From Viola odorata (taxonomy: Eukaryota; Streptophyta; Magnoliopsida; Malpighiales; Violaceae), in contig OY829539.1 of assembly GCA_963691705.1 (NCBI GenBank), positions 5,024,501-5,088,500 of the forward strand: DNA of 64,000 nucleotides. Reading direction: 5' to 3'. Shown here piece after piece: positions 5,730 to 33,633 of this stretch. The position numbers and the translations under genes were made by a program. The notes below the pieces were generated by a model. The model was not told the origin of the DNA. It saw only the letters and a list, made by a program, of their open reading frames with translations, and did not search any database. Position 1 is the stretch's first letter. Each line of letters starts with the position of its first letter.

Positions 5730-5830
5730 GTTGCCCCCTCTTTACTGTCTTATCAAAAATTCGGTGTAACCGAGATTTTTTGATGAGCAGTAAAGATGGT
5801 TGCTCCCGAACCAGCAATGGTTTTGAAAAT
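5730..5830 (-). promoter_or_regulatory. Y polypurine tract and adjacent hairpin
   Basis: On the minus strand TAAAGAGGGGGCAAC directly precedes the LTR start TGTTGCTACCC. Next to it an inverted repeat pairs CTTATCAAAAAT with ATTTTTTGATGAG around a smaller stem CGGT-GTA-ACCG. The same arrangement is present in X (27566-27640) and Z (20945-21024), so this is a fixed part of the element and not chance. Confidence 0.75.
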
Positions 5831-5834
5831 AATG

Positions 5835-6010
5835 TAGATACAGTTTCCCCTGATAATGGGATGAAAAGTGGATGCAGAAATATAAATGACATGTCCCTGA
5901 TACTGGGATGAAAAGTAAATTGGCAGAAATGTAAATGACAAACTTCTCTGATAATGAGGAAAAATGTAAATGACTTCTTCCCTGATAATGGGGTAAAATG
6001 CAAATGATGA
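5835..6010. repeat. Hairpin module with TGATAAT loop, Y copy
   Basis: About four spaced units read CCC-TGATAAT-GGG, CCC-TGATACT-GGG or CTC-TGATAAT-GAG and are separated by TGCAGAAATGTAAATGAC-type spacers. The loop is kept while both arms change together. Confidence 0.7.
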
Positions 6011-6014
6011 AATG

Positions 6015-6240
6015 TAAATCAGGTAGGGCGAGGGTAGCACTCGCAGTCTATACCTCTATGTGGAAAAGTGAATCAGGTAGGGCGAGGGTAGCACTCGCAG
6101 TCCGTACCTTGTGCAGAAAAGTAAATCAGGTAGAGCGAGGGTAGCACTCGCAGTCCGTACCTTGTGCAGAAAAGTAAAGTGCGAAAAATGTAAACTCAGC
6201 CCCGTCGAGGGTCGTACTCGTAGGCCGTCGCTGATTGATG
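6015..6240. repeat. 53-bp hairpin module (GCGAG-GGTAGCA-CTCGC), Y copies
   Basis: There are three close tandem units and one diverged unit. Each has the core GCGAG, loop GGTAGCA, then CTCGC, followed by the AGTCCGTACC segment and a GTGCAGAAAAGTAAATC spacer. It is the inverted counterpart of the larger array in Z at 20165-20650. Confidence 0.82.
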
Positions 6241-6328
6241 CAGAAAAATAAATGCAGAATGATAAAAGAATGTGAATGCAAGCAGAAAGTAATTTGCGAA
6301 AAGTAAAGTAAAGTGCGGAAAATAAAGT

Positions 6329-6960
6329 GCGTGGGGACAAGACACATGTTGTGGGGACGAACCGCTTACAACATTTAGAAGATGCATGTTGTGGGGACGA
6401 ACCGCTTACAACATGGTTGACATGACATCACGTGGGGATGAACCGCTTACGTGACTTAAAAAGACGCATGTTGTGGGGACGAACCGCTTAAAACATTCAA
6501 ACGACACATGTTGTGGGGTCGAACCGCTTACAACATGGTTGACATGACATCACGTGGGGACGAACCGCTTACAACATTCAAACGACACATGTTGTGGGGA
6601 CGAACCGCTTACAACATGGTTGACATGACATCACGTGGGGACGAACCGCTTACGTGACTTAAAAAGACGCATGTTGTGGGGACGAACCGCTTACAACATG
6701 GTTGACATGACATCACGTGGGGACGAACCGCTTACGTGACTTAAACAGACGCATGTTGTGGGGACGAACCGCTTACAACATGGTTGACATGACATCACGT
6801 GGGGACGAACCACTTACGTGACTTAAACAGACGCATGTTGTGGGGACGAACCGCTTACAACATTCAAACGACACATGTTGTGGGGACAAACCGCTTACAG
6901 CATGTTAAACAGACATCACGTGGGGACGAACCGCTTACGCGACCTAAAAAGATGCATGTA
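6329..6960. repeat. Hairpin tandem array with swapped stems (TTGT/ACAA and CACGT/ACGTG)
   Basis: There are about fifteen units. All share the loop GGGGACGAACCGCTT. In nine the arms are CATGTTGT and ACAACATG, counting a few units with one arm base changed. In five the arms are TCACGT and ACGTGA or nearly so. In one (about 6548-6577) a TCACGT arm is followed by an ACAACA arm. The two types alternate through much of the array and make a composite unit of roughly 83 bp. Three related units lie in X at about 29805-29930. Confidence 0.9.
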
Positions 6961-7029
6961 TAAAGTCACTCTAAGAGGAGATGAAATGCTGGAAAGTAAA
7001 TTGTAGGAAAGTAAATAAAGTAGATGTGA

Positions 7030-7200
7030 ACTTCACTTGGGCATTGTTGTCCCTTGAGACATTGGTGTGGAAATTGAAATGACGCTACTGCCCGTCGGAG
7101 GTTGATGCTGAAAATGAAGACTCCACTCGGACGCTGCCGCCCACTGAGAGGTTGGTGCGAGATCCTTCCAGACGCTGCTACCCGTCAGATGTCGGCTTAA
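7030..7200. repeat. Diverged repeats with GGACGCTGCTGCC core, Y copy
   Basis: Roughly four units of about 50 bp contain CTC-GGACGCTGCCGCCCACT-GAG and relatives, joined by GGTTGGTGC(T)GA spacers. Related units are at 29225-29345, 29630-29720 and 32770-33310 in X. Confidence 0.65.
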
Positions 7201-7224
7201 ATGTTGGATATATTGATTGGATGG

Positions 7225-7690
7225 TGGGGGAAATTGATCGCCGCACAAAAGTTTGAAAGGTGGGGTTTTGAACAGCCACACAAAAGTTTGAAAGGTGGGG
7301 TTTTGAACCGCCACACAAAAGTTTGAAAGGTGGAGTTTTGAACCGCCACACAAAATTTGAACCGCCACACAAAATTTTGAAAGATGGGGGTTTGAACCGC
7401 CACACGGAATTTGAAAGGTGGGGTTTTGAACCAACACACGAAATTCGGAAAGTGGGGTTTTGAACTGCCTCACAAAATTTATTGAAAGGTGGGGTTTTGA
7501 ACCATGACACAAAGTTTAACAGGTGGGGTTTTGAACCACCACACAAAATTTATTGAAAGGTGAGGTTTTGAACCACCACACAAAGTTTGATAGGTGGGGT
7601 TTGAACCACCACAAAAAATTTATTGAAAGGTGGGGTTTTGAATCACCACACAAAGTTTGACAGGTGGGGTTTTGAACCACCACACAAAAT
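7225..7690. repeat. 33-36 bp hairpin tandem array, Y copies
   Basis: About thirteen tandem units of GTGGGGTTTTGAACC-x-CCACACAAA. This is the reverse complement of the much larger array in Z at 18425-19915. Each unit folds as GTGG, one bulged base, GGTT, loop CAA, AACCCCAC. Confidence 0.88.
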
Positions 7691-7860
7691 TTATTGAGGA
7701 GTGGTAACATATTCCATTCGGATGGAAAAGATGGGCAGCCGCATGAAGTTGATTGAGGAGTGGTAACGTACTCCATTCGGATGTCGATGATGGTGGGGAA
7801 GATGGACAGTCGCACGAAGTTGATTGAGGAGTGGTAACGTACTCCATTAGACGTTGATTG
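7690..7860. repeat. 75-bp module (GGAGT-GGTAACGT-ACTCC), Y copies
   Basis: Three partial units contain GGAGTGGTAACGTACTCCAT, in which GGAGT can pair with ACTCC. The module ends close to the insertion point of Z at 7908. The bases CTAGT at 7903-7907 should be the target duplication of Z, but the partner copy has been deleted. Confidence 0.75.
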
Positions 7861-8652
7861 GATGGATTTGTTGGCGGAGATTCGCGGCAATGTGAGATTT
7901 CACTAGTTGTTGCTACCCGATTTTTGATTTTAAAATTTTCATTTGTCGCCTTTTTGTCATTAATTTTCTAAAATCGTACTTCTATTTATTTACGTCAGTC
8001 TGATGTTTATTTTTACGCTTAATGTCATTTAAATTTTATTCCATACTTTTTTCGCATTTTTATCACTTTTTTCGTTCGAACCCGTATCAGCCCCGAGTAA
8101 AATTCTCGAAATCGATGGTCGAACAATTCCGCTCATTAGCTACTTATCTGTTATTATTTTTCTAACTCGTGCTATCTCTTTCCGTTTCGTTCAATTTTTA
8201 TTTTAGTATTTTATTACGCTCGAACTTTTATTGCTTATAAGTAAATATTTTTTATCAAACTATATAGCGAACTTTTCACCATTTACTGTGTACTAATAAT
8301 TTTATTTTATTTTACTCTACATTTTAGTGACTTCGGTCCGAGTTTATATTTACTTTCAGGCAAAATTGTTCGTACCACCTGTTCAAACCAGGATAAATCA
8401 AAAGGAAGATCAAGATTTGATCTTAACCGTTAATCTGGTTGACTTACAAGTCAACCAAGATCAAACGGTTCTCTAATTAATAGGTTTCCCCTATTTCTCA
8501 CCACCTTTCTGCGCAGGAGCTAGAGAGATCAGTTCATCCCTCCTTTCCTCCCTTGATCCTCACGGCTTCCTCGAGCGGCACCACAACGTGACCAGCAGCC
8601 TCGAGCCTCACCACGGCCCACGTCATCATCTCTCCAACGCCTCAACTCCGGC

Positions 8653-8660
8653 TATAAATA
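8653..8660 (+). promoter_or_regulatory. TATA box of Z 5' LTR
   Basis: TATAAATA lies in the context CTCCGGCTATAAATAGCC. X has the same element in its LTRs on the minus strand (26779-26786 and 34491-34498). The deletion that ends the Z 3' LTR at 21790 cuts inside this same box. Confidence 0.7.
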
Positions 8661-9739
8661 GCCAAGCCCAAACCCAAAAATTGGGGGGGGGGGGATGGAA
8701 GCACCAATTCACACACGGCGTTAATTCGATCAAGCAACCCAACAAATTCAATTCCATCCTCTGTTAAAAAAGAAGAGAGAAATCAAAACACCCAAGCCTC
8801 GCCACGGCCGCAATCCAGCAGTGCCACCACCACGCCGCAATCAGCCCCAATCCGCGCCGCTGCCGCAATCGGCCGAGCCTCAGCCGCATCCTGCTCCTCA
8901 GCTGCCCCGCTGCCAACACCAAGCCGCATCCCACGCTGCCAACACCAAGCCACACTGCCGGCGACATCAACACCAAGCCAGACCGCCACTGTCCCACTGC
9001 CAAACTCACCGGACCAATCCACGGCCAAAACCACCACCCATCAAATCCAAACAAACCACCATCAAATCCCAACCAAATCAACCACAAAAAAAAATCAATT
9101 CATCACTGCCCAATCGCTACCCTCACGAATAGGGTTAATCAATATATCCAATTAATTCCTCTGCCTCAAGCCAAAAAAAACTCAACCAAATAACCAAAAC
9201 CCAGAACCCAAAACTAGCCACACCGAACCTCCGGCCTCCAGCGCCGTCCGACCCCCCGGACACCATCTCGATCTCCGCCACAACCACCAATTTCCCCGCC
9301 GCAGCCGCCAGCGCTTCCGCCACAGCCGCTTCCAATCGCCATCGCCACTACCCCTCCGTTGTTGTGTGCGTGTTGCTCCAAGAGAGAAATAGAAAAACAG
9401 AAGAAAGAAAATGGGAGAAACAAGAAGAAAAAGAAAGAGATAAGAAAGAAAGGGAGAGGAGAGTGAGTCTGGTCTGCGGCCAAATGGAAAAGAAAAAGAA
9501 AAAGAGGGAAAAGAGAAGAAAAGGAAAAGAAAAAAGGAAGGTCTGGGTTTTGGTTGATGGGCCGCCTCACTTGGCCCAAGCTGAGGAGAGGAGAAGGGCT
9601 GCGCAGCCCACGCGGAAAAAAGAAGGGACCAGCCCAACTGGGCTGGTCTGTTGGGCCTTTTGGCCCACACTGATGGGCCCCTCTTCGGCCCAGTGGGTCG
9701 ATCCCACTGTTAACTCGTCGCTTTTTCTTTATTTTTTTT

Positions 9740-10150
9740 TCGCGCACCTGTACCGTTTATTTATTTTTCGCCCGTGTACTGTTATTTATTTCTGCACTCG
9801 TATTGTTTATTTTTCCTATGCGTGTACTGTTTATGTATTTTCGCACTTGTACTGTTTAATTTCCGTATGCTTGTACTGTTTATTTATTTTTCACATGCTT
9901 GTACTATTTATTTAATTTCTGTATGCTTGTATGCTGGTACTGTTTATTTATTTTTCGTACTTGTACTATTTACTTTCTGCACTTGTATTGTTTATTTAAT
10001 TTTCGTACGCTTGCATGTTTAATTTTCGCATACTTGTACTGTTTATTTAATTCTCGTACGCTTGCGTGTTTAATTTTCGTATACTGGTACTGTTTATTTA
10101 ATTTTTGTACGCTGGCATGTTCAATTTTTGTATGCTTGTATGCTTAATTA
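9740..10150 (+). repeat. LTR minisatellite, about 30 bp unit
   Basis: Roughly a dozen degenerate units of the form GTACTGTTTATTTAATTTTCG followed by TATGCTT or GCACTT. Shorter versions occur in reverse orientation in the Y LTRs (about 4255-4365 and 23260-23420) and the X LTR (about 25840-25975), so copy number varies between LTRs. Confidence 0.8.
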
Positions 10151-10939
10151 TTATTCTCGTATGCCTGTATATTTAATTATTACCTTCATATGCATTTGCA
10201 CGTTTAATTATTCTGCTTACGCATAATCGTCAAAAATAATTAAATAAATACAGGCAAATGCATGCTTGCTTCCGAAAAATAATTTTGATTCCAATTATTC
10301 GTATGCTCATACTTTTTAATTGCATGCTTCCGAATGCTTAAATAATTATTCCACTCGCATTTAATTCCTAAATTATTTATGTCTCTCGCGATAAGTCATC
10401 TGTTTTTCGATTATCATTTTCCCAAACTAATAACAGCAACTTTGCAGGGCAAATCAATCGATGCCCTTCACAAATACGCCTCATAACTTCGTTTGAAAAG
10501 GGGTAAATCACCCGTACCCCTTTATCAAGTAAACGTTTCTTACCCTTTTATTTCACGTTTTTTTCATATATAATCGTATGCATAAATATTTAGAATTATT
10601 AAAATTTAATCTGTTGGGCATGATCACGTAATTTAGGAATTTGTTTTTTCAAAGCATATTTCAAACACCTCTCTCTCCGGTAACCTTTTAGGATGTGACT
10701 CGGGTGCCTAACACCTTCCCGAGTCCATAAATCGACCCCGAACCACTGTTCTCGGGTTCAGACCCATTTCGCCTTAGTTTTTATTTTTATGCATGATAAT
10801 AGGTTCCCTAAACCTAGAAACAAATTAGGGTGGCGACTTCATTGCATAATGCGAGACATCCTTTTACGCCGGACATCGTAATGTCCCAGATTCGTCGTAT
10901 ACTCGCGAATGTTTATTTCATTTTCGCGGGGTGCCACAG

Positions 10940-10959
10940 TTTGGTGACTTCACTGGGGA
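10940..10959 (+). promoter_or_regulatory. Primer binding site of Z
   Basis: TTTGGTGACTTCACTGGGGA starts two bases after the LTR end. Y has TTTGGCGACTTCACTTGGGA in the matching place. Ogre/Tat elements are known for a PBS of the TGGCGAC...TGGGGA form, attributed to tRNA-Arg. I infer the same primer here. Confidence 0.7.
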
Positions 10960-11439
10960 TGATAGGGTCGGAGCCAGATTTTTTTTGAGGTGTTTGTTTT
11001 TCAATAAATTGTCGAATTTGTTTCATACGATATTTTTTTTTTGTATATGATTAATTATGATAAATTGTTGTATTATCACATTATTTCTATACATGATTAT
11101 TAAATTGCTCACATGATTCAGTGTTACTCGCTTTGATAAACTGTCATTGCATATGCATATCCACGCATAATCCCTATTGTCGGGCATTTCCAAATAAGAT
11201 TAGGAGGTTAGTAGTGAAGTCCTGGGACACGTGTCCTAGTAAGCTTTCACGAACGCTAAACTCAGACTTGAACCCCTAAATGGGTGAGCGCCCCGATTCT
11301 TTGATGTTTCGGTAAGCAATCACATCCATTTACTGAGGGACCACTTTTATGGTATCGTCTGGGAGCCTTCTAGCCAGTTAGAAGTAGTAGATGTCACCCC
11401 AACATATGCATCATATTTAAATGCGTATGTTGCGATTGT

Positions 11440-12090
11440 GTTTCACTTTTTCCACAATTGATTTCTCAATTTTTTCCACACTTACAACAGATTTCGCAAT
11501 TTTTCTACATTTACAACTGTTTTCCCATGTTTACAAATTTTTGGTACATTCTTCCACATTTACAAATTTTTCCTCAAATTTTCTACATTTACAAAATTTT
11601 CCACAAATTTGTCTTGTTTATAAATTTTTCCATGATTCTTCCACATTTATAAATTTTTTCCAAAAACTTTCCACGTTGGAAATCTTTTTTAGCCAACTTT
11701 CGACGTTGGGAACTTTTTCCACAAAATTTCCGTACTAGCAAATTTTTCCGTAAATTTGTCACATTTGCAAATTTTTCGCAATCTCTCCATATTTGCATGT
11801 TTTTTTAATGTCTCCAGGTTTGTGAAATTTTTCCACGATTTCTCAATATCTACATATTTTTCCATAATTCTTACACGTGTGGAAAATCTTTGCCACGTAT
11901 GCAATATTTTCACAATTTTTCTACGTGTGCAATTTCTCCACAAATTGCTCCACGGGCGCGAGTTTTTGCCGAAAATTTTCACATTGATAAAATTTTTCCA
12001 AAAATGTTTCCATATGTGAAAAAATTCTTCAATTTTTTACATGCAAATTCTTTCGCGTTTTTTCCATGTTTATAAGTTTGTCTCAATTAT
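11440..12090 (+). repeat. Leader tandem repeats (TTCCACATTTACAAATTTT type)
   Basis: About 25 degenerate units of 19-25 bp, rich in TTTTTCCACA and TTTACAAAT, fill the leader between PBS and gag. The reverse complement of the same repeat borders the deletion junction in Y at 21791-21920, which shows that both elements had this leader. Confidence 0.75.
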
Positions 12091-12273
12091 TTTTGTAATT
12101 CTCCATGTTTGTGATTTTTTATGGCGCTTGCATTATTGCTATTATCGTACTAAACCCTCTCCTTTTCTTGCAGCATGTAGACCTCAGAACGAAAGATCAC
12201 ATAGGTGTCAATTATAACCTAAGCCTCATAATTGTTTCCTTTTTACTTTCAGGGTCACAAAAGAAAATAAGTC

Positions 12274-13211
12274 ATGGCTTCCGAAAAGCAAATCGCTCCC
12301 CGCGTGCTCCCCGTGACCAAGGGTCAGAGGTGGAAAATTATCGAAAAGGTTTAGGCATTAGAAGCAAGGGTGGAGAAACTCGAAGAATATATTTAGGTAG
12401 CCATGGAAAGCACCACACCAGCCAAAAAAGAACAAGATGAGAAATTCTATGGCAGTGGCAGGATCCTTCCGGTAGTTCCACACTCACCTCAGGCACTGTG
12501 ATCAGACCAAGTGCAAACACTCCAGATGACGCACCTCTCAATCCTCTACTGACCGAACCCACTCTCAATCTGGGAAAGCAGAAGATCCACTCAGAATCTC
12601 AATATTTTTACCTATCTCGGGGCCATTCCATTCCATTCAAAGGGCCTAAACCGCCAAAAGTCCAACCTGCTGGGGGCATCAGATTCAGCCGCATCTCTCT
12701 TATGGTAGCCTTTCTGACATGATAACCAAATAGAGAACCAGGTTGGGAAGCGATTTGTTGTTCCGTAGCAGAAACAACACTTCAAAGGGCACTTCCTAGT
12801 AAAGAAGACGTTAGTCCGGTCCCCGTCAGCTTAGCTACAAATGACCGTCTTCACTGCATATGCTGCAGCCTGCACAACGGATACCATGTGGCTCACCAAA
12901 TCGACCAAGAAACTAAAATAACCTCCGAAATCATGGGCCAGTGCCACCTTCCCCCCCTTCCTTTAGGGGTAATATTCAAGCATCTTTGGATGGTTGGACA
13001 AATTGCACCAATCCCGGTCCAACCTCAACAACCTCCTTACCCAAAGTGGTATAATCTTGATGCTAGATGCACATACCATGTTGGAACTCAGGGCAAGATC
13101 ATAGAAAACTTCTCTACTCTTAAAGGAAAGGTAGATTGCCTGATCAAGAGTGGAAAAATCTCTTTTGAAGGACGCAATGTGATCGTCAACCCACCTCCTA
13201 CTGGCTCTTGA
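12274..13211 (+). pseudogene. Broken Ogre/Tat-type gag of Z
   Basis: A start at 12274 (MASEKQIAPRVLPVTKGQRW) opens a coiled-coil-like N-terminus (ALEARVEKLEEYI) that already contains two stops. The recognisable C-terminal part at about 13040-13190 reads PYPKWYNLDARCTYHVGTQG and then IIENFSTLKGKVDCLIKSGK. It matches the KWYDxxARCxYHxxxxGHxxENC...LKxKVxxLI signature of plant Tat/Ogre gag. The final cysteine of the knuckle-like motif is replaced by F. The middle of gag is missing, so this is a deleted, frameshifted remnant. No protease follows. Confidence 0.72.
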
Positions 13212-13439
13212 ATGAACGTTCTCCTGGCCTACGGTGGACCCGTTCTGCTTAATTTTTCGGTGGCGATACCTACAATATTTTTGTGCATTATTCGAGCCTA
13301 CGACTATAAACAAAGGCGCTTCGTGGGAGGAGGCAACCCACATGTTCTTTTTAAATATTTCTATTTTTGTCAGTTTTAATTTTTAATTCATAACTTTGGG
13401 ATATCTTTCCCTCCAGACTTACTATTTAATTTCCCCTTT

Positions 13440-15435
13440 TATTTTAGGTGCAATAAGACATGCAAACTGGGGGGCAAGCAAGTGGAATGACAACTAGAAG
13501 AAGGCGTTAGGGAGCCCTAAAGATTGAGCACATTTTTAAATAGGGACAAGGCATATGGAGCGAAAATTCGCTACAAAGAGTTCTCTACGTCCATCTTACC
13601 CTTGCCTTCAGATCATCGCTGAGGCGGGTGCAGAGGAATGCTCATATTATCAACCCTTGAACGATCCTCCTCAGGATATTTTACCATCAAGACATTACTG
13701 TCAGCAAGTGCCCTTCATAAACCATCCCTCATCTTAGTGAAGAGCCGTGATAATGATAGATGTGTGTCCTCCAGAGGTCCCAATCCGCATACTTAGTGCG
13801 TTCCGACTCTGTGCTACAATAACATGCACACCCTACACAGCTTCTGACTGCAAATTTAAAATTCAATCATGGTCAAATCCTTCACATTTTGAAGATCTCT
13901 CCGTACAGATACAACGATCCCACGCTGAAGCGTTGGAACTTCTCAACAAAGAATCAACAAGCTAGATTCCCCAATTGGAAGCTTTCAAAGCAGGAGGTAG
14001 AGTCATGGGATCCTATGCAAAAAGCACTCAGACTTCCTGATCTATTACCCCAGTCTTATATTCACTGCGTACAGACAAAGCTCTCCTTGGAAATTTCAGC
14101 TGCAGGCGATGCCTCTAAAGATGTTAGTTAACAGGTTTTAGGCGTACAAGTCCATGGCTGGCTAGATAGGCTTGTTTTCCCACCTGCTCAGTGCCTAAAA
14201 GATCCGCATATACCTTCAGTTCCCTATCCATCTAATATTGAAAGCCCAACTCCCGTTGTTGCTTCTTCAAATGATGGCGATACGCCACCACCACCTGTGC
14301 CACAACTGTGAATTTGTGGGGAGAACACATATTCGGGACCTCTTTTATATCCAGGTTGATCTTAAAGTCTTTTGGGAAAGGTCTGCTTGATGTTCTCCAG
14401 TCAATGAGCTACAGTGACCATGAAGCAATGCAAATTGTTGCAGAAGCTACTTTTGATGCATTGCAGTGTCTGTCAGTTAATCATGGCCCTTTCTTTATTT
14501 GGGTGAAGGAATACATTTGTTGTGCATTGAAGCTCTCTGGTATTAAAAGGTCAATGCGTGGAGATGTTTCCTCACAAGAACTCATTGAGCTATCTGGTGA
14601 TAAGAAAGCTCAGTTTGACTACGTTTCTCACCTCCATACGGAGGTTGTGATTGCTTACAAAGCTGCTGAGGGACATTTTAAAGCATTCTGTGAAGAAGCT
14701 TCGCGTCTTAGGGAATTACTTCTTCACATAGAAATAGAGTTGGCCGTTTGTGAGGTGGAGGCATCAGAACTCCAGACTCGTGTTGTTGAAATCTTGAAAG
14801 ATGAGTCAGAATTAGAGAGTGAGAGTGAGGCCGCCTATATGGGGTGGTGTCCATTTTTCATTTCAGTAGCAAGATTTTAGGCCTCAGCAGCAAAAACGAT
14901 CGCGGAGATGGTTCGCTTGAAAAATACTTGCTTTCAGTCACATAATCCATCACTATCAGAATCATCATCATATCCAGCCGCATCACTATCCTCCTCACTA
15001 AACACAGTCTCAAGGGTTATGTCGAGCTCATCTTCCCTTAGCAATCTGACCAAGTCCAAAAATGATTCAGTTGTTCCCAAGATAGAGTCTACAGGGAGAT
15101 CGTACATTCAATTTCTAACAAGGAGTTAGCAGGCTGCGATTGGCTATGATGGAGCCGTTAGAAATGTCGGTAGCAATACCATCATCCGATTTGAGCATGG
15201 ATGAAGCTGGATCAAAATCACAAGACTGATTCCCCGATGGCAACTTGAATTTCCAGGTTGTTTTGCCCAACTATTCCGATCGCTCTGGAAATTTTCTTCA
15301 GCTTATTGCATCCTTTCCTAAAAATAGAGAGTCTGTCTCTGAAGGGTTTCATTATCAGCCTAGAAGATTATCCGATGGGCAGTCAAAGAGCGAAAGAACG
15401 TTAAGGGTGTTTCTTCCTTGCTATATAATGTGAGA
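13440..15435 (+). pseudogene. Unrecognised coding-like remnant downstream of gag in Z
   Basis: Codon-like sequence runs in shifting frames: 13555-13737, 13747-13965, 13889-14131, 14308-14880 and 14908-15129. The longest part (14308-14880, 190 residues) has a helical, charged stretch (EEASRLRELLLHIEIELAVC) and a serine-rich tail. A pyrimidine tract and TTTTATTTTAG precede it at 13430-13448, a possible splice acceptor. It is not RT, RNase H, integrase or protease. It may be an extra ORF of the kind reported in Ogre/Tat elements or a captured host fragment. I cannot name it. Confidence 0.35.
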
Positions 15436-18284: not shown

Positions 18285-18415
18285 ACATTCGAATGGAGCA
18301 CGTTACCACTCCACAATCAACTTCGTGCGGCGGATCAATTTCCCCCACCATCCAACAAGCATCTGAATGGAGCACGTTATCACTCCACAATCAACTTCGT
18401 ACAGCGGGCCACACT
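18285..18415. repeat. 75-bp module, Z copies
   Basis: Two units read GAATGGAGCACGTTACCACTCC followed by ACAATCAACTTCGT. This is the reverse complement of the array at 30130-30880 in X. Confidence 0.75.
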
Positions 18416-21790: not shown

Positions 21791-22433
21791 TTGTAAATGT
21801 GAGGAAAATTTTGTAAATGTGGAAAAATCTATAAATGTGGAAAGATTTGCGAAAAAAATTATAAATGTTGAGAAATTGCGACATCAATTATAAGTGTGGA
21901 AAACTTTAAGAAATCATATGAAAAAAAATGAAACAAAGTCACAATATATGCATTTCAATATGATGCATATGCTGGGATGACTTCTACTACTTCTAACTAG
22001 TTGGAAGGTTCCCGGACGATACCATAAAAATGGTCCCTCTGTAAATGGATGATTGCCTGTCGAACCATCAAAAGTTCTAGGCGCTCACCCATTTAGGGGT
22101 TCGAGTCCGAGTTCAGGGTTCATGAAAACTACCCGGGACACGTGCCCCAGGGCCTCACTAGTACCCACCTATTTCTATTTGGAAAAAGGGCCCGGCGATA
22201 GGGCATTATGCATGAAATGCATATGAATGACAGTTTATCAAAGCAATTAACAAATCATGTGAACAAAATAAATACATGGAAAGTAATAATCATGCATAAA
22301 GAATCATGTGATAATACAACAGTTTATCATGTCAGTGGAAAATAATTAATCATGTACAAAAATCATATGAAACAAATTCAACAATTTATTTCAAAACAAA
22401 CACCTCAAAAAAATCCGGCTTCGACCCTATTAT
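21791..22433 (-). other. Remaining 5' leader of element Y
   Basis: In reverse orientation this matches the leader of Z just after its PBS. Shared features are the fixed block GAGGTGTTTGTTTT, the poly-T run, and the CATGATTAATTAT segment, then the TTTACAAAT repeats at 21791-21920. No coding sequence. Confidence 0.82.
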
Positions 22434-22453
22434 TCCCAAGTGAAGTCGCCAAA
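22434..22453 (-). promoter_or_regulatory. Primer binding site of Y
   Basis: On the minus strand TTTGGCGACTTCACTTGGGA lies next to the 5' LTR end (22455). It is the same kind of site as in Z, matching the TGGCGAC-type PBS of Ogre/Tat elements. Confidence 0.72.
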
Positions 22454-22454
22454 C

Positions 22455-25416
22455 TGTCGCACCCCCTTTTTGGATTTCATGCTAATGCGACGCGGGTTTG
22501 GGATTGGATGTGAGACGAAATCGGACTCATCTCACATAACGCATATGAAGTCACCACCCTATTTTGTTTCTAGGTTTAGGGAACCTATTGTCATGCAAAA
22601 AAAATAAAAAGCTAAGGCAAAATGGGTCTGAACCCGAGAACAGCGGTTCGGGGTCGTATTATGGACTCGGGAAGGTGTTAGGCACCGAGTCACATCCTAA
22701 AAAGGTTACCGGATAAAAGAGGTGTTTAAAAATTGTGTTTGAAAAATAAAAAGTCCTAATTTATTTGATCATGCCCAATAGATCAATAAGATTCTAATCA
22801 AATTTTAAATATTCATGCATACGAGCATATGCGGGAGAAAATGTGAAATAAATAAAAGGATGAGAAATGTTTACTTGTGAAGGGTATGGACGGTTTTTAC
22901 CCTTTTGGATCGAGAATATGAGGCATACTTGTGAAGGGCATCGATTGATTTGCCCTACAAAGTTGAGATTATTAGTTTGAGAAAATGATAATAGATAAAC
23001 ATTTATTGCGAGTGGAATAAGTAATTTTAGTGATTAAATGCGAGTGAAATAATTATTTAAGCGTTCGAAAGCATGTAAATAAATAATTAAAAAGTACGAA
23101 CATACAAATAATCGAATCAAAATTATTATACGCAAATGATATGATTATTTTTGACGATTAAGCGCACACAGAATAATTGAAACGTGCAAAAGCATATGAA
23201 AATAATAATTAATCATGCAAGCATAGGAAAATAATAATTAAACAGGCAAACATACGAAAAATAAATAAACAGTACATGCATACGGAAATTAAATAAACAG
23301 TACAAGCATACGAAAATTAAATAAGCAGTACAGGCATACGAAAATTAAATAAACAGTACAGGCATACGAAAATTAAATAAACAGTACAGGCATACAAAAA
23401 TTAAATAAACAGTACAAACAGATGGAAAAGGCGCGAAAAAAATAAATGCGATGGACTGAAAATTTGGACTAGGCCCACTGGGCCTAGAAATTGGGCCCAC
23501 TAGACCAGGATAGCCCCCTTTTATTTTCCATTTGGGCTTGGCTTATGCCAAGCCCATGATCAATTAAATGACCAACCCAACACTGTTCATCATCTCCCTC
23601 CATTCGTCCGCGTCTCCTTCTCTCTTGAGCAACAGACACGCAGCAGGGCACGGTGCAAGGCAGCAGACCAGCGGCTCCGGTGACTGAAGTAGGCTCTGGC
23701 AGCAGGAGACAGCAGCAGCGAGGCAGCGGCGTGGCAATAGCATCATCCTCTCCTTCGGCGGACCAACGGCGTCGACGACCGGACCAATGGCAGTGTGACG
23801 AAGCGCGACGACAAACCCGCAGCGCACGTCGTCTTCCTCCAACGCCGGTGAGGCAGCGCGGCAGCAGCAGCACCGCGGTGGAACGAGGCAGCAACTCAAC
23901 AGCGGCTCGGCAGTGGCGACACGGCAGCAGCTTTCTCCTCTTCCTCTCGACAACAAGCAAAAGCAAGGAAGAAAACAGAAAAAGAATCACGCAGAATAAA
24001 TTAAATGAATTAGAAGAACGAACGGGACGAGAAATTGCTTGCCTTGCTTCCGCCGATAAAGTGCAGAAATGTGTGTTGTGTCAATTGTGTGTGTCAACTT
24101 GCCTGCTATTTGTAGACAGGGACGGATCCAGGAATTATTTCCAGGAGGGGCGGGGTTCGGGGATTTTTGTTTGGAGTATTTTAAAGGGAAGGCAAACGAG
24201 CTGAACGAAAAATTAGAAAAATGCTTAAAAGTATTTGTATCCGTCACTAAATAACATTTGATGATATCGATGGTGCTTCACTTCGACTTTTTCGACTTTT
24301 TCGCAAGTCGTTCTTCACTTTCATTTGAACCAACATTTGATGATATCGATGGTGCTTGAGTAGATAGTTTAATCAAATATTTGTCCATATAAAAAAAAAT
24401 TAATACAGTTAGCATATTAATTTAATGAATTTAGTTTCCTATAAATCTCTGCTTCCCTCTTGCTACTGTTTTGCATCTACTTCACAAATTCATTCCAAAA
24501 AAAAACTAAAATGATCCAAAATAATTTCTATAAACTAATTATTACCAAATATGTCCAACATTAAATGCAATGAATAAAGATTGCATAATCTCTACAAGTT
24601 TAAAGATCATGAAGAGAGGGATTTGGGCTGGGCTGCATACTAAAAACATTTGTTCCATTAGCCCAGGGTGGGCATCAGCCTACCCTGGCCCCCCTAGATC
24701 CGTGCCTATTTGTAGAGAGGGAAACGACAAGCAAAGCTACAGGGTCGAAAGCAAAGGGAGCAGAAAAATGCAAAATGGAGTGAGGTGGCATGAAAATGCA
24801 TTTGCAAAATGTTGTCAGAGGTGGTTCATGCATGCATCCTCATGCTTAAATTGGGAGCCATTGGATGTGAAGAAAAGGAAGGTCAACGCTTGATCAAGGG
24901 TTAAGATGAGTTGACCTTTGGGAAATGTTTAGTATTTATTTAATCGGTTCTAGCTATCAACAATTTTGAAATGAATAAAATCCCGAACCAAAAATTCTAA
25001 AACATGCAATAAATTGCAACAAAATAAATAGTAATCAGTAAATAATAAAAAAGTTCGATTTAAGGTCCGAATTTACTCGCTCGGAATCCTTAAAAGTTCG
25101 AACGAAAAATAAATGTTATAGCAAAGTAAATTGGATAAAAATAAATGAGATACGCAAACGAAAATAATAGTAGATAATTATCAATTAAATAAAGAGTGCG
25201 TTCGATCCATGGTCCGAGAAAATTTATTCAAGACCGATAGAAGTTCGAACGAAAAGACAATAAAAATATGAAAAAACTAAAATCACACGAAATGGTACGA
25301 AATATTAAAATAATATAGCCTAAGATCGAAAATCGATAGAATTTCGGTTTAAATGGGCTAATAATGCGATAAATAAAAAAGTGCGAAAAAAACGCGTAAA
25401 AAATCGGGTAGCAACA
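22455..25416 (-). repeat. Y 5' LTR (2962 bp including an inserted MITE)
   Basis: Pairs with 3456-5729. The extra length comes from a 588-bp MITE plus its 12-bp duplication, and from an additional stretch of about 55 bp near 23665-23720 that the 3' LTR lacks. Open frames here are LTR composition. Confidence 0.9.
24119..24706. mobile_element. 588-bp MITE in the Y 5' LTR (Mutator-like target duplication)
   Basis: The ends are GGGACGGATCCAGG and, inverted, GGCACGGATCTAGG, a 14-bp terminal inverted repeat with two mismatches. Flanks TATTTGTAGACA (24107-24118) and TATTTGTAGAGA (24707-24718) form a duplication of 10-12 bp with one mismatch. The sister LTR at 3456-5729 has the uninterrupted site. 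It holds no transposase. The long duplication suggests the Mutator superfamily, but that assignment is an inference. Confidence 0.82.
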
Positions 25417-27565
25417 CATGGCATAAAAAAAATAAAACTAAGGCAAAAATGGGTCTGAACCCGAGAACAGTGGTTCGGGGTCGTATTATGGACTCGGGAA
25501 GGTGTTAGGCACCCGAGTCACATCCTAAAAAGGTTACCGGAGAAAGAGGTGTTTAAATCATGCTTGAAAAATAAAAGTCCTAATTAAGTGATCATGCCTA
25601 ATGGATTAAATTTTAACAATTTTATATATTCATGCATACGAGCGTATATGCGAAAAAAGCGTGAATAAATAAAAGGGTGACAAATGTTTACTTGATGAAG
25701 GGTACAGGTTGATTTACCCCCTTCGATCGAGATTATCGGTACGAGGAGGAGATAAACGCTTAAGTACTTGACGACTTATGCGCGTGTAAATGATTAATTT
25801 TAAACAAGCACGAACAAAATAATTTATACATGCAAGCATACGAAAAATAAATAAATAGTTCAAACATACCAAAAATAAATGAATAGTACTAGTGCGAAAA
25901 TAATTGAACAGTACACTTGTTGAAATAAATAAATATTACAATTGTGCGAAAAATAAATAAATAATACAAGTGCACGGTGGCATGACAAAATCGACGACCT
26001 AAAAATTGGGCTTGGCCCACTGGACCGAAAATGGGCCTCACTAGCTGGGCCCAAGACAGCACAACCCATTGGGCTGGCTGTCTGTGTGGGCTGTTTCAGC
26101 CCACGCATCCTCTTTTTCTCGCTGGGCCAAACGACCCAGCTTCTCCATGCTTGGGCGCCTTGCGCCCAAGCCCTTTTTCCTTCGCTGGGCCTGCGCTGGC
26201 CCAACTTTCTTCCTCACGCGGGCACAATGCCCGCGTTTCTTTCTTTTCTTGGGCCAAGCCCCAAAACCAAATTAAATTAAATAGGAACCCTGCACTATTC
26301 CCCTTTCTTCCTTGCATCGCCGGTGCCATTGCCGGCGACCAAGGAAGAAACGGTCATACCTATGGCTGAAACCTTACCAGGAAAATTCCCTGCACCCACA
26401 GTAAGCTTCGCATGCAATCACAGCACATAAATTAAACCAAAATAGCACTCAATTAATTCAAAAATGAATTTAAACTAATTAAATAAAAAGTTTGAAATTG
26501 ACTCGACTGGCCAACGTTTGAACAAATTAAAAGTTGTAATTATTTTGGATATCAAATAGAATTTATTTTAAATCAAAATGGCTAATTATCATTGAAAACA
26601 CGAACACAAAAAATTCTTGAAAAAATAAGTAGAGAAGTGCTTAACCAAGCTTAAAGTTTCAACTGGGAGTAACTTCAACCTTTGGTTAAAGTAGGCAGCT
26701 GTTCATGATAGAGAACCAGCGCTAGAGAGGGAGAGAGTGTTCGTGAATTAGCGAAATGAAACTAACAAGCATGCTCCCTATTTATAGGCGACTTCGCGAG
26801 TGATTTTTGGCAAGGTGGCTGCGCGTGGTCATGGAAAACTTGGGGAGCAAGGGAGGAGCAGTGCTGCAGTGGTTGTGTGGCTGAGGTTGCTGGTCGCGTA
26901 GGGACGACGATCGAGGAAGAAATTGCTTGAGAAACGAGCTCGTGTTTGCCTCTAGTGCATGAACCAGAGGTGGTAGGATGGCTTGCTTGCGTGTTAATTA
27001 TCTCAACCATTTGATCTTAGTTGACTTTCAAAGTCAACTAGATCAATGGTAGAGATGAAGGGCTTGATCTATTACTTAATTATTCAATTCAAGTCGACGG
27101 TACGAGCAATCTTGCCTAAAAATGAACAAAAACTCGAACCAAAATTGTTACAACGTAGAATAAAATAAGCTGAAATAATTAATATACAGTGAGCGACGAA
27201 AATTTCGTCATATCGCTCGATAAAAATTTGCTAATAAGCGATAAAAGTTAGAACAGGAAAAAATACTAAAATAAAAAATTGAACGAAACGCAAAGAGATA
27301 GCGCGAGTTAGGAAAATAATAAAGAATAAGTAGCTAATGTGTGAAATTGTTCAACCACTGGTTCCGAGAATTTTACTTGGAACCGATATGAGTTCGAACG
27401 GAAAAAGTGATAAAAATGTGCAAAAGTTATGAAATAAAATTTAAATGACATGAAACATGAAAATAAATATTAGTTGGACGAAGAATAAATAGAAATACGA
27501 TCTTAGAAAATTGATATTAAAATGCGAAAAAGTCTTGATGAAAAATCAAAAATCGGGTAGCAACA
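25417..27565 (-). repeat. X 3' LTR, main part
   Basis: Starts with the second CATGG of Y and resumes the X LTR exactly where 3455 left it, ending GGGTAGCAACA at 27565. It matches 33634-35267 from about 25937 onward. A TATA box lies at 26779-26786 on the minus strand. Confidence 0.88.
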
Positions 27566-27665
27566 GATGCCCCCTCTTTACTGTCTTATCAAAAATCCGG
27601 TGTAACGGAGATTTTTGATGAGCAGTAAAGATGGTTGCTCCCGAACCAACAATGGTTTTGAAAAT
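27566..27665 (-). promoter_or_regulatory. X polypurine tract and adjacent hairpin
   Basis: TAAAGAGGGGGCATC (minus strand) precedes the LTR. An inverted repeat CTTATCAAAAATCCG ... CGGAGATTTTTGATGAG follows. The inner arms TCCG/CGGA differ from the TCGGT/ACCGA of Y but still pair. Confidence 0.75.
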
Positions 27666-27774
27666 AATGAAAATGCAGACTTACCTGGGAGTGAGTGATT
27701 GGAGAATTTTATCCTGGGCGAGGGTAGTTCTCGTAGTCCCTAGGTTGGTGCTGAAAGTAAAGTGCGAAAAATGT

Positions 27775-29046
27775 AATTTGACGTCCGAACGGGGATACTG
27801 CAATTCTCAAACGTCGATGCAGAAAATGTAAACTTGAGATCCGAACGGGGACACCGCAATTCTCGGACCTCTGTGCAGGAAATGAAACTTGACATCTGAA
27901 CGGGGACACCACAATTCTCAGACGTCGATGCAGAAAATGTAAACTTGAGATCCGAACGGGGACACCGCAACGCTCGGACCTCTGTGCAGGAAATGAAACT
28001 TGACATCTGAACGGGGACATCGCAATTCTCAGACGTCGATGCAGAAAATGTAAACTTGAGATCGGAACGGGGACACCGCAACTCTCGGACCTCTGTGCAG
28101 GAAATGAAACTTGACATCTGAACGGGGACATCGCAATTCTCAGACGTCGATGCAGAAAATGTAAACTTGAGATCGGAACGGGGACACCGCAACTCTCGGA
28201 CCTCTATGCAGGAAATGAAACTTGACATCTGAACGGGGACACCGCAATTCTCAGACGTCGATGCAGAAAACGTAAACTTGAAATCCGAACGGGGACACCG
28301 CAACTCTCGGACCTCTGTGCAGGAAATGAAACTTGACATCTGAACGGGGACACCGCAATTCTCAGACGTCGATGCAGAAAATGTAAACTTGAGATCCGAA
28401 CGGGGACACCGCAACTCTCGGACCTCTGTGCAGGAAATGAAACTTGACATTTCAACGGGGACACAACAATTCTCAGACGTCGATGCAGAAAATGTAAACT
28501 TGAGATCCGAACGGGGACACCGCAACGCTCGGACCTCTGTGCAGGAAATGAAACTTGACATCTGAACGGGGACACAACAATTCTCAGACGTTGATGCAGA
28601 AAATGTAAACTTGAGATCCGAACGGGGACACCGCAACGCTCGGACCTCTGTGCAGGAAATGAAACTTGACATCTGAACGGGGACATCGCAATTCTCAGAC
28701 GTCGATGCAGAAAATGTAAACTTGAGATCGGAACGGGGACACCGCAACTCTCGGACCTCTGTGCAGGAAATGAAACTTGACATCTGAACGGGGACACCGC
28801 AATTCTCAGACATCGATGCAGAAAATGTAAACTTGAGATCCAAAATGGGACACCGCAACTCTCGGACCTCTATGCAGGAAATGAAACTTGACATCTGAAC
28901 GGGGACACCGCAATTCTCAGACGTCGATGCAGAAAATGTAAACTTGAGATCCGAACAGGGACACCGCAACTCTCGGACCTCTGTGCAGGAAATGAAACTT
29001 GACATCTGAACGGGGACATCGCAATTCTCAGACGTCGATGCAGAAA
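27775..29046. repeat. 108-bp dimeric hairpin tandem array (X)
   Basis: About a dozen 108-bp units, each made of two related 54-bp halves. Half A folds GAC-a-TCTGA, loop of 18 (ACGGGGACACCGCAATTC), TCAGA-c-GTC. Half B folds GAG-a-TCCGA, the same loop core, TCGGA-c-CTC. Two base pairs differ between the halves and both differences preserve pairing. The spacers are GATGCAGAAAATGTAAACTT and TGTGCAGGAAATGAAACTT. Because 108 is a multiple of three, a 421-residue repetitive frame stays open on the minus strand; I do not believe it is a gene. Confidence 0.92.
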
Positions 29047-29765
29047 TGTAAAGTTATCCGGGCGAGGCTATCACAGTCACGAATGCTGATGCAGATATGA
29101 AAATCAGGTAGGGCAAGGGTAGTACTCACAGTCCGTACGTTGTTGATGCGGAAAAGTAAACTCAACTCCGGCGAGGGTAGCACTCATAGTCTGTTGCTGT
29201 TGATGCAGAAAATTATGATGGTGATGTAGCTTTGCTCGGGCGTTGTTGCCCCCTGAGACATTGATGTAGAAATTGAAATGGAAACTCCACTAGGACACTG
29301 CTGCCCGTTAGAGGTTGGTGCTGAAATCCTTCCGGACGCTGCTGCCTGTTGGATGTTGATTTCTGAGGACGATCTCTGATAGTGAGGTCGTTTATGGTCT
29401 TCTCTGATAGCGAGGACGATCTCTGATAACAAGGTCAGATGTGGATCTCTGATAGTGAGGAGGATGATCTTCTCTGATAGTGAGGCACTTTTCTGATAGC
29501 ATGATAATGAGGCGCTTCTCTGATAGCGAGGAGGTTGATCTCTGATAGTGAGGAGGTCTTCTCTGATAGGGAGGGGATGTTGATTTCCAAAGACGATCTC
29601 TGATAGTGAGGTTCGTTGATGGTGAAAAATCCACTCGAATGCTGCTGCCTGTTGGATGTCAGTGCTGAATTCCTCTCGGACGCTGCTGCCCATTGGAGGT
29701 TGGTGCTGAAGATGTAAATGCATGTCCGTGCGATGCTATCGCTCTCTGGATATTAGTGTGAACTC
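29047..29765. repeat. Mixed short hairpin modules of X
   Basis: From left to right: two or three diverged 53-bp modules (29050-29200), GGACGCTGCTGCC modules (29225-29345), a run of CTC-TGATAGT-GAG units (29355-29620), and two more GGACGCTGCTGCC units (29630-29720). Order and content mirror Y. Confidence 0.7.
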
Positions 29766-29799
29766 ACAAAATGAAGACAAGATGTATGTGGGGATATTT

Positions 29800-29935
29800 A
29801 AAGATATGTTGCGGGGACATGACCAATCACAACATTTAAAAAGACATGTTGTGGGGACGTGACCGCTTACAACATTTTAAAAAGACATGTCGTAGGGACG
29901 TGACCGCTTACAACACTTAAAAAGACATGTGCGAA
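29800..29935. repeat. TGTTGT/ACAACA hairpin module, X copies
   Basis: Three units have the loop GGGGACGTGACCGCTT or a relative of it. Arms are TGTTGC, TGTTGT or TGTCGT on the left and ACAACA on the right. They correspond to the 15-unit array of Y. Confidence 0.8.
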
Positions 29936-30004
29936 AGTGAAAAAATGGGCGACCAAGTCGTCACACAAACGCGGGTGACCAAATCACCGCAACAAGACTG
30001 ATAA

Positions 30005-30125
30005 GTGGATTTTGAACTGCCACACAAAACTTGGAAGGTGGAGTTTTGAAATTTTGAAAGGTGGGGTTTTGAACCGCAACATAAAACTTGGAAGGTGGGG
30101 TTTTGAACCGCTAGATGAAATTTTG
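30005..30125. repeat. 33-36 bp hairpin module, X copies
   Basis: Three or four units of GGTGGGGTTTTGAACCGCxAxA type, corresponding to the large array of Z at 18425-19915. Confidence 0.8.
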
Positions 30126-30129
30126 AAAG

Positions 30130-30880
30130 AGGAGTGGTAACGTATCTCCATTCGGATGCTCGGATGGTGGGGGAGCGTGATCCACCGCATGAAATTGATG
30201 GTGGAATGGTAACGTGCTCCATTCGGATGCTCATTGGATGGTGGAGGAAAATGGACCGCAACACAAAAATGATTGTGGAGTGGTAACGTGCTCCATTCAG
30301 ATGTTGATTGGACGGTGGGGAAGCGTGATCCACTGTACGAAATTGATGGTGGTAACGTGCTCCATTCGGATGTTCGGATAGTGGGAGAAATGGACTGCCT
30401 CACGAAATTGATGGTGGAGTGGTAACGTGCTCCATTCGGATGTTCGGATAGTGGGGAAAATGGACCGTCATACGAAATTGATGGTGGAGTGGTAACGTGC
30501 TCCATTCGGATGTATATTGGATGGTGGGGGAAATGGACCGCCGCATGAAATTGATGGTGGAGTGGTAACGTGCTCCATTCGGATGTTTGGATAGTGGGGG
30601 AAATGGACCGTCGTACGAAGTTGATTAAGGAGTGATAACGTACTCCATTCAAACGTCAGTGATGGTGGAGGAGCGTGATCCATCGCACGAAATTGATTGG
30701 GGAGTGGTAACGTACTCCATTCGGGTATCGTGGTGATGAGGAAGCGTGATCCATCGCACAAAATTGATTGGGGAGTGGTAACGTACTCCATTCGGGTATC
30801 GTGGATGGTAGGGGAGCGTGATCCGCCGCACAAAATTGATGGTGGAGTGGTAACGTACTCCATTCGAACGTTGATTGGAT
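30130..30880. repeat. 75-bp tandem array, main expansion (X)
   Basis: About ten units of GGAGTGGTAACGT(G/A)CTCCATTC, GGATG(T)T, GGATGGTGGGG, and a variable ATGGACCGxCxxACGAAATTGATGGT. GGAG(T) pairs with (A)CTCC around GGTAACGT. Units are 65-80 bp. Confidence 0.85.
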
Positions 30881-33633
30881 GGTTAACAGATATTTCACTG
30901 AAGCATATCTGTATCCTGCAAATAGGGAGGAAACAAACACGAAGCAGTAGTGGATGGAAGAAAGGAGAGCAAATGATAAATGAGAAAATAATGAGAACAA
31001 ATCATATATGTTGTATATGAAAGTATTCCCACACTACCCTAAGGCTTGCCCCCCAGTATTTTATCAAGGTGAAAACAACTTCCCTATCAAGAGAAGGTTC
31101 AACAAATTTATGCATTTCTGGAGAACATGTCATCCAGTTTTCTGTCATACAAGCATGCTTGATACAAACCTAGAAAAGCATCTGCATCTTGCCCAGGATA
31201 TAACGACCTCAAGGACAAGACTTTCTCACATCATGTAGACGTAAGCAATCCTCATCAGACATTGGTGTTTGCGCTCACACTCAGAAATAAGGTTACGTGT
31301 TTACACTCATAAAAATGCAACAAACATAGCACAAAATAAGATTTGCAATGTCAATCCGAGTGAATAAACTTCAAATGAAGATGCACATGCATGGGCCTTC
31401 ATATAATCGAGAAGACTTTGCAATAGAACAGAAATATGTAGTGGATAGACAGAGAGAAGTAGAGAAGAAAGAATTTGTTTAAGGAAGAGAGTGCTTTTTG
31501 GCAGAAGAAAGGGTTTTTAATAAGCGATGCTCAACTGAGGTTGCTAATCGGAGGTAAGGTGCGCCTCGAGTGCAGTTTACGAGAGTTTGGTGAAACTCTG
31601 AAGCTTTTCCTTTGAAATGTCAGTCTTCTTCTCCACAAATTATTGTTTGAATACGACATGAGACCCCTTTTTCGAAATACCCAACTGGGTTTTTGAATCT
31701 TCACAAAGAATGATCTCTTTTTCTTTGAAATCATCATTTGTCATTGACAAAGTACACCAGTTTTTTGAATCTTCGCAGGGAATGATCTCTTTTACTTTTG
31801 AGATCATCATTTGTCGTTGACGAAGTGCACCAATTTTTGAATCTTTATTGAAAACGATCTCTCTTTTGTTTTGAGATCTTCTTGTTAACTTACTTGCTTG
31901 TGTTCTTCGAACACCTTTTTTTTTTTTTTTTTTTTGCGAACAAACCAAGTACAATTTTTGTCTGTTCCGTCGTCATTTCCGTCTTTGGCAGAGGCCTTTA
32001 AGTCTTGATTTTTGGCCTTCTTCCAGCCTTGACCATCAGCAATCTTCGGAGATTTTGGAATCCTTCGTGTGCAACCCAATTTCGATGTGCACCTTACCTT
32101 CGGTTAACAACCTTAGTTAGGCACTGCTCATTATTTAGGGAATTCAAGTGGAAGCAAGTGTTTGAAAATAGAAGAATGAGAAGACCAAAGAAATGTGGAA
32201 GCAAAGAGCAAAGTCCCCTGTTATCTTACAGCTATCCCATGTCTAAATGTGCATGTACCCTGGATATTATGCAAATCTAACTAGCACTTAGTTTGGCATT
32301 TGCACTCATGAAAGAAGTATGGTGTGAAGGCCTAAAATGCTCACAGGGATGTGTTTGTGATTGCTTACATCTAAAGCATGTTGTAGATATAAGAGCTAGC
32401 AGGCGAGATCATGCATGTCATATAACTTCAAATGGATGCACAAGTTATCCATGATGCAGTAACATGTTGAACATGCTCAATTTATGGAAGGTTTGAAAAC
32501 TTTGAGGGTAGTGTGGCTTTTATTCAAAATTTTATTCACAATTATAAAGTTAAAAAAACTTAGTAGTTTTAAGGACAAAATGTGAGGGTGTAACTATTCA
32601 TGAAAAAGTTATGAAAGAGTTGCCCCCGATGTAACAAAAAATGAATGCAGAATGATTGTATAATTGCTAAAATTTAAAAGAGGCGAGAAGGAAAAATGGA
32701 CTTCCCTTGATATGTGCGGCGAGGTCGCGAGGTCAGAGCAAGGATGCCACCGTGGAAAAGTAAATGTAGACTTCACTCGGGTGTTGTTGTCCACTGGGAG
32801 GTTGACGGGAGTTTAAAATGGAAACTCCATTTGAACGTTGTTGTCTGATGGGCAGCTGATGGCTAGGATTTCCAGGTCCAAGAAGCCGTCCTTAAGATAG
32901 GTCGCTTGCGGGATGTAGCGGTCTATTTTATGAAGAGACCCATTCTCTGTAGATTACATAGCAAGGGAGAAACGACCTTTTCTGATTTGTTTTTTTTTTT
33001 TTTTTTTAACTGTCCCGGGGTGGGGAGGAGGATCATTCGAGAGCTAATAGGAGGAAGATTCGTTCCCATGACATGATGCAGGAAACCATGGCATGATTGG
33101 TATAGCCAGGCTTATTGGCAAGCACATCATGATTCTGATCGGATGTTGAGACTCATTTATGCTTTGCGGAATTATGTTTGGATGTTACCGACCATTGAGA
33201 TTTTGATGGGGAACAAAAATGAAAGTTCTATTTGGGCGTTGCTGCCCACAGGAATGTTGATGCGGAATGAGAAATTCACTCGGGGACTGCTGCCTGATGG
33301 GACGTTGATGTTGAAATCTTTATATCCGGACGAGAGTAGCACTCGCGGTCCTGGATAAGACAAGCAGAAGGACGTTGATGGCTTTAGCCGGACACCTTGC
33401 GGAAATGCATATTGGTGTTCCGGACTTAGTGAGACCGATCTTTTCTTAGCTAATTTAATTGCGTGGGTCGCTTCTGAGAGTGCATCGGTTTAGGCCTGAC
33501 TTTTGATGTCATCCTTGGGGAAAGACATTGCTTCACCTTTCGAAGGGATGAGAAACTCCTTTAATGAGGGTTCGCGACCGTTGTCGTGGATCCAGAAAAT
33601 GACGTCCATGCACCACATTTCAGAGAATGCTTT
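30881..33633 (-). other. Non-coding interior of X, ending at a deletion
   Basis: 30890-32660 is the reverse counterpart of about 16260-18240 in Z. It contains a T20 run at 31916-31935 and palindromic repeats at 31640-31900. 32660-33400 carries further diverged GGACGCTGCTGCC-type units, a T-rich run near 32990-33007, and one long hairpin at about 33324-33356 (ATCC-GGAC-GAG ... CTC-GTCC-GGAT). The interior ends abruptly at 33633, where LTR sequence begins part-way in, so the gag region, leader and PBS of X have been deleted. No gene recognised. Confidence 0.6.

Follow-up and report, generated by a model that had tools for sequence, protein, structure and literature searches.

The question raised by a 64,000-nucleotide stretch of Viola odorata DNA (C3:5024501-5088500 of a 699 Mb genome; hereafter the window) is whether the hairpin-forming tandem repeats that lie inward of the polypurine tract (PPT) in three nested long terminal repeat (LTR) retrotransposons, X, Y and Z, form a fixed series with a role of its own. 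X, Y and Z belong to a single Tat/Ogre-like family, with Y inserted in the 3′ LTR of X and Z in Y. They are members of one large family, their LTRs all start with TGTTGCTACCCGATTTTTGA after an identical purine tract, and LTR divergence drops along the nesting order (0.050, 0.024 and 0.0135). The observation that they share a modular 3′ region is real and extends further than could be seen from the window. The strongest signal, however, is the predicted fold of the PPT/LTR junction, of which the original prediction had listed the PPT hairpin merely as one module among others.

This junction is the best-conserved part of the family and is found in X and Y as follows:

27545..27690, minus strand: PPT/LTR junction of X, comprising the PPT hairpin (27571-27634), the PPT, the LTR start (~20 nt) and the pairing flank
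5705..5845, minus strand: PPT/LTR junction of Y, with the PPT hairpin at 5733-5812

The predicted fold consists of the PPT hairpin (~20 pairs), the 3′ arm of which continues into the PPT, and an outer stem in which the initial 10-25 nt of the LTR pair with the internal flank. The PPT end is predicted to sit in a bulge between the two helices, so that both it and the cut site between PPT and U3, the 5′ part of the LTR, would lie between them. Ten displayed junctions of 40 have folding energies of -31.8 to -53.4 kcal/mol. A genome-wide search with the PPT-hairpin pattern returned 240 exact copies (121 forward, 119 reverse), and none with the reversed control. At each of 19 pairs, the 5′ arm, which is outside the search pattern, is Watson-Crick paired to its 3′ partner in 34-39 of the 38-39 copies scored. 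Comparison of 29 type-A copies (31 were tried, two being without the junction motif of the script) showed an identity of 90-98% at positions -80 to -1 and of 94% in the 20 bases that open the LTR; it fell to 69% in the 20 bases after these, was 69-89% in the 300 nt that follow and stood at 46-70% upstream beyond -120. A corresponding claim for type C, an ultraconserved junction next to a wholly diverged LTR, was rejected: nine of 16 copies are 78-100% alike per window over the first 700 nt of the LTR (~93% on average), and the mean LTR identity of 76.6% over 1.3 kb includes L067, which is only 45-48% identical to every other copy. Because type-C LTRs are also alike near the junction, the type-A contrast alone is used.

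The sequence of the outer stem differs between subfamilies, while its complementarity is kept. In X it reads CGGGAGCAAC/GTTGCTaCCCG with one bulged base, in Z CGGTAGCAAC/GTTGCTACCCG, and in the locus L025 (loci elsewhere in the genome carry L numbers) GTAAAGATT/AATTTTTAC with one G.U pair. In L054 the stem CGTCAAAATTCGG/CCGAATTTTGACG has all 13 of 13 bases paired and is unlike that of X. In all 36 junctions scored, flank and LTR start pair better than shuffled flanks do on average; four of the 40 had been dropped because the arm motif of the script missed them. Among seven subfamily representatives, pairing with the own LTR start averages -19.1, which only 10 of 5040 permutations reach, and swapped partners average -16.1.

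Inward of the junction, seven modules can be distinguished: M1 (TGATAAT), M2 (53-bp GCGAG), M108 (108/111-bp), M3 (TTGT/CACGT), M4 (GGACGCTG), M5 (33-36 bp) and M6 (70-75 bp). Arrays and profile matches place the modules where they had been reported in X, Y and Z, and the unit counts bear out that each element has multiplied different ones. The features in Y and X are:

5848..6007, minus strand: Y, M1, TGATAAT
6009..6235, minus strand: Y, M2, 53-bp GCGAG, 4 units
6338..6943, minus strand: Y, M3, expanded TTGT/CACGT array, 15 hairpin units
7040..7204, minus strand: Y, M4, GGACGCTG
7239..7697, minus strand: Y, M5, 33-36-bp, 12 units
7692..7865, minus strand: Y, M6, 70-75-bp
27769..29052, minus strand: X, M108, expanded 108/111-bp array, 23 half-unit hairpins
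29090..29215, minus strand: X, M2, 53-bp-type
29223..29719, minus strand: X, M4 (GGACGCTG) units flanking an M1-like GATAGTGAGG block (29364-29618)
29800..29930, minus strand: X, M3, TTGT
29985..30120, minus strand: X, M5, 33-36-bp
30124..30882, minus strand: X, M6, expanded 70-75-bp array, 11 units

Strict collinearity of the three elements did not hold. The order is PPT-M1-M2-M3-M4-(half M6)-M5-M6 in Y, PPT-M1-M2-M1′-M5-M6 in Z and PPT-(partial M2)-M108-M2-M4-M1′-M4-M3-M5-M6 in X, so M4 lies closer to the PPT than M3 in X, and Z is without a match to either module there. Comparison of these orders leaves PPT-M2-M5-M6-spacer as a common core with a variable middle. A second, small M4-type cluster was seen beyond the common spacer, 4.2-5.8 kb upstream of the PPT, in X (~32760-33350, where M2-type units are added), Z (~16130-16170), L039, L040 and L042-L044.

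Whether the order holds in the family at large was read from 39 PPT-anchored maps: 30 pattern loci (L009-L038, the first 30 of the 240, all from contig C1), L002-L007 (found via the 108-bp array), and X, Y and Z; L008 was omitted, as it has no PPT match. Neither a lack of modules in most copies nor a random order, either of which had been named as speaking against an ordered system, was seen. At least one of the seven modules is present in 38 of the 39 loci, the exception being L025. M2 occurs in 34 loci, M108 in 23, M3 in 22, M4 in 18, and M1, M5 and M6 in 17 each; counts of the distal modules are lower bounds because the maps of many loci stop 1.5 kb upstream (of the 30 pattern loci, 22 cover only this length, and eight maps have further upstream sequence). 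Based on module median positions, cut at 3.6 kb, the order M1-M2-M108-M3-M4-M5-M6 is kept in 218 of 249 comparisons, whereas shuffles give a mean of 124.8 and a maximum of 162. As the copies are related, this agreement reflects an inherited polarity and not independent events. The predicted fixed series thus stands as a non-random polar order but not as a rigid one, since M4 is closer to the PPT than M3 in 6 of 13 cases (M3 closer in 7) and the 108-bp and 53-bp units interleave (M108 closer than M2 in 18 of 22). These two pairs account for most exceptions, and the remaining seven are in L011, L015, L016 and L017.

Within this nearly fixed order, each module is free to multiply. The M5 array ranges from 2 to 42 units across loci. 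The LTR starts of L069 and L070 are 99.9% identical over 1.3 kb, yet these loci have 17 and 19 B units, and L068 and L071, 99.1% identical, have 12 and 13. The B units belong to loci recovered in a DNA search with the L054 junction (at least 41 matches, 40 of 1613 candidates being scored). Sixteen such loci were read, L056 being the same place as L054; within 1.5 kb they show the architectures A-B-A2-(M3) and B-A2-(M6), plus A only in L065. B is closer to the PPT than A2 in 15 of 15 distinct young places having both, with 3 to 22 B units. Three PPT junctions of this young family (G000:C9:44799370-44826062) lie on the same strand exactly 13,266 bases apart, and their LTR starts are 99.9-100% alike, as if they were tandem elements or a duplicated block.

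The stems of the modules had been described as compensated. This was examined by an arm-swap test, in which a left arm pairs either with its own right arm or with that of another, clearly different unit; some representatives match the loosely defined core by chance. The arms of M3, M2 and M108 co-vary, swaps doing as well in 0, 1 and 3 of 300 cases, respectively, whereas M6 (25 of 300), M4 (66 of 300) and M5 (199 of 300) fail, as does B (463 of 500), for which swapped arms pair better on average. The idea that all modules are compensated hairpins was therefore rejected. For M3, the fully paired five-base stems are GTTGT/ACAAC (21 pieces), CACGT/ACGTG (5), CGCGT/ACGCG (3), GGTGT/ACACC (2) and TGCGT/ACGCA (1), taken from the 122 of 156 cores with at least four pairs; pieces are counted, and L027 and L043 are one element. 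Since the paired stem survives sequence change, M2, M3 and M108 may also be structured RNA, while the other modules show no such sign. An excess of G.T over A.C pairs was rejected as proof of this, because one pair supplies 163 of the 242 G.T in M108 (242:55); the counts elsewhere are 47:29 in M2, 10:5 in M3, 57:60 in M4, 23:18 in M5 and 2:3 in M6.

The coding content was followed in relatives of a gag-end-related fragment retained in Z (12726-13211), which itself has no Pfam match. Neither X nor Y showed a gag, and the open reading frame (ORF) lists of Z and X contain no pol; Y has lost most of its internal region. The ORF of L072, a relative of the fragment, matches PF03732 (E 2.3e-10), a retrotransposon gag of the Retrotrans_gag type. 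In a search with the Z fragment that scored 150 of 4013 candidates, L053, L054 and L055 were picked by likeness and open-frame length (440, 732 and 523 amino acids (aa)), regardless of a PPT. Each of them nevertheless has the PPT hairpin, followed by M1- or M2-type units, an M3-type array and M6, and PF03732 is also found in the gag ORF of the L054 element. Downstream of gag, these three loci have no ORF of pol size, the longest stop-to-stop frame being 192 aa. Of 32 open pieces of at least 60 aa between gag and the arrays, 20 were scanned against Pfam and none gave a match above a curated cut-off, to a pol domain or otherwise; three showed weak sub-cut-off matches to unrelated families. A tblastn search with three ORFs of the Ty3/gypsy element that hosts X found only the host element itself and a chance match (E 0.8) in Z. 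In the fetched sequence of three of three relatives, gag is followed by the 3′ LTR with no pol detected. No autonomous partner was found in a PF17919 reverse transcriptase search that scored 150 of 17,216 candidates, unmatched to gag or PPT places.

Together, these data slightly favour a reading in which the family carries a conserved, structured plus-strand priming site downstream of the known Tat hypervariable 3′ region, the latter turning over locally while its polarity is kept. The junction fold would pause the reverse transcriptase and expose the PPT/U3 boundary, so that RNase H could cut exactly and the plus strand be primed. Reverse transcriptase switching template locally between adjacent repeats would create and resize arrays in place, and module order would survive for that reason; we infer template switching as the source of the arrays. 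Several points weigh against this. The search pattern itself fixed 29 nt of the junction, and the two innermost pairs of the X hairpin are not kept (Watson-Crick in 21 of 39 and 2 of 36 copies). Type-C copies were chosen by junction likeness, and the next ~450 nt of their LTRs are also 89-100% alike. The junction subfamilies are few and related, and some flanks find an equal or better partner in the LTR start of another representative (wX in those of L028 and L053; L025 in that of L054). Wobble pairs show no clear strand preference, with 31 G.T and 33 A.C in the PPT hairpin. The antisense strand yields similar swap contrasts for M3, M2 and M108, and stronger folding is seen in module-free controls than in X3 and Y3, so these tests are silent on RNA versus DNA. 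Finally, the 5′ ends of L053-L055 are outside the fetched sequence, and a badly decayed pol could evade the checks.

The modules could instead be a selected cis-acting RNA array for packaging, dimerisation or capture of a partner protein, each with its own job, as originally suggested. The order kept across diverged subfamilies, the re-paired stems of M2, M3 and M108 and the lack of a detected pol, owing to which the elements would need mobilising in trans, are consistent with this. A copy number varying from 1-2 to more than 40, the many copies without some modules in the stretch examined, the failure of M4, M5, M6 and B in the arm-swap test and the weak folding of the X3 and Y3 sense strand argue against it. 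The arrays may have a selected function, but this reading as a whole appears unlikely. Quite unlikely is an entirely neutral origin, with arrays made by slippage, order kept by descent, and stems and junction repeat re-made by snap-back copying. It would fit the resemblance of the flank to an inverted copy of the LTR start, pair tables rich in deamination-type changes and, in the available part of PMC7004042, the hypothesis that Tat arrays arise by illegitimate recombination or abnormal strand transfer. It accounts poorly for a type-A junction that is 90-98% conserved beside an adjoining LTR at 69-89%, and for stems with G.U intermediates and single-pair changes instead of whole-arm replacement alone. 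Doubtful to a similar or slightly greater degree is a combined scheme, in which pol-less elements would carry ordered RNA modules and a PPT/LTR clamp as a co-selected set, partner enzymes packaging and priming the RNA and single-module expansion tuning the copies. That the inverted repeats act as DNA or host double-stranded RNA, for example as cruciforms or as sources of small RNAs silencing the family, is very improbable, even though they are present on both strands and the antisense folding z-score is stronger in X3 (-3.0) and Y3 (-5.4).

The elements that carry these junctions and modules are delimited as follows:

3316..35267, minus strand: X including all nested elements, from LTR alignment and the target site duplication (TSD) CAGAG
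27565 down to 25422 plus 3455 down to 3316, minus strand: 3′ LTR of X, split by Y
35267 down to 33634, minus strand: 5′ LTR of X, truncated
27566-33633, minus strand: internal region of X
3456..25416, minus strand: Y with Z inside, TSD CATGG
3456-5729, minus strand: 3′ LTR of Y
22455-25416, minus strand: 5′ LTR of Y, carrying an insertion of ~580 bp
22439-22451, minus strand: primer binding site (PBS)-like site of Y

PBS-like sites adjoin the 5′ LTRs of Y and Z. The insertion of ~580 bp (24122-24706) is present in the 5′ LTR of Y but not in its 3′ LTR. An Rfam scan of 3300-35300 gave no family reaching the gathering score. A host element split by X is suggested by integrase domains of the Ty3/gypsy type at 971-2116, together with further ORFs that start from 35344 onward. 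Elsewhere in the window, tandem palindromic 20-mers (AAAACGCTATAGCGTTTT) at 55252-55467 and 62064-62161 sit within long direct repeats (54486-55800 and 61229-62463) that flank long ORFs, presumably of a Ty1/copia-like element. A 585-aa coiled-coil ORF on the minus strand (44622-46379) is taken to be a host gene of the KIP1-like/NET kind. Outside the window, upstream of L025, ORFs in L041:1893-3906 match PF01107 (viral movement protein), DUF7588 and DUF7746, and this stretch is probably endogenous pararetrovirus-like, judging from these matches.

The hypervariable 3′ region of Tat/Ogre/Retand retrotransposons was reportedly described by Macas in 2009, a work cited in PMC7004042. As in Tat/Ogre elements, tandem repeats occupy the region before the 3′ LTR. 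The available part of PMC11963269 (Vicient 2025) describes for Tat/Ogre/Retand varied tandem units that follow the coding region and precede the 3′ LTR, with copy numbers differing among copies of one cluster, and states that the origin and function of the Retand arrays are unknown. In contrast to that account, different modules here recur in order across diverged subfamilies, and some stems are re-paired. No title or opening of an abstract among those listed from the library searched, which lacks most subscription papers, describes for Tat elements an ordered series of hairpins or for Ty3/gypsy elements a PPT/LTR inverted repeat. Gag without pol and a need for mobilisation in trans may be shared with TR-GAG elements, as far as presented in PMC9784723, from which the family differs by LTRs of ~2.3 kb in Y and 3 kb in Z, by a long modular 3′ region and by the lack of any gag seen in X and Y, Z having just a fragment. 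In the available portion of PMC5371799 on Ty3 RNA, the PPT likewise adjoins U3 and priming structures involve the 3′ region (bipartite PBS). The 3′ U3 of Ty3 is, however, part of the tRNA primer site, whereas in the present family the predicted partner of the LTR start is its own flank. The closest parallel to the junction is in Sireviruses, for which the accessible part of PMC2829016 describes an inverted repeat around the PPT, one arm upstream of it and the other within the LTR, at a highly conserved junction, and its authors propose a role in PPT primer formation. Compared with that description, the present family is Ty3/gypsy-like, has a second hairpin inside the repeat and one PPT hairpin per fetched copy, and holds the PPT in the 3′ arm of the inner hairpin and the adjoining bulge, whereas the Sirevirus PPT sits at a loop's 5′ edge. 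The family thus joins two known features, the hypervariable Tat 3′ region and a PPT/LTR inverted repeat resembling that of Sireviruses. Its recurring order, separable modules and near-identical junctions with differing arrays represent natural variants for testing the role of the arrays, and a PPT/LTR stem that covaries in a Ty3/gypsy-like family would point to a requirement common to plus-strand priming in general, of which the Sirevirus repeat would be one expression.

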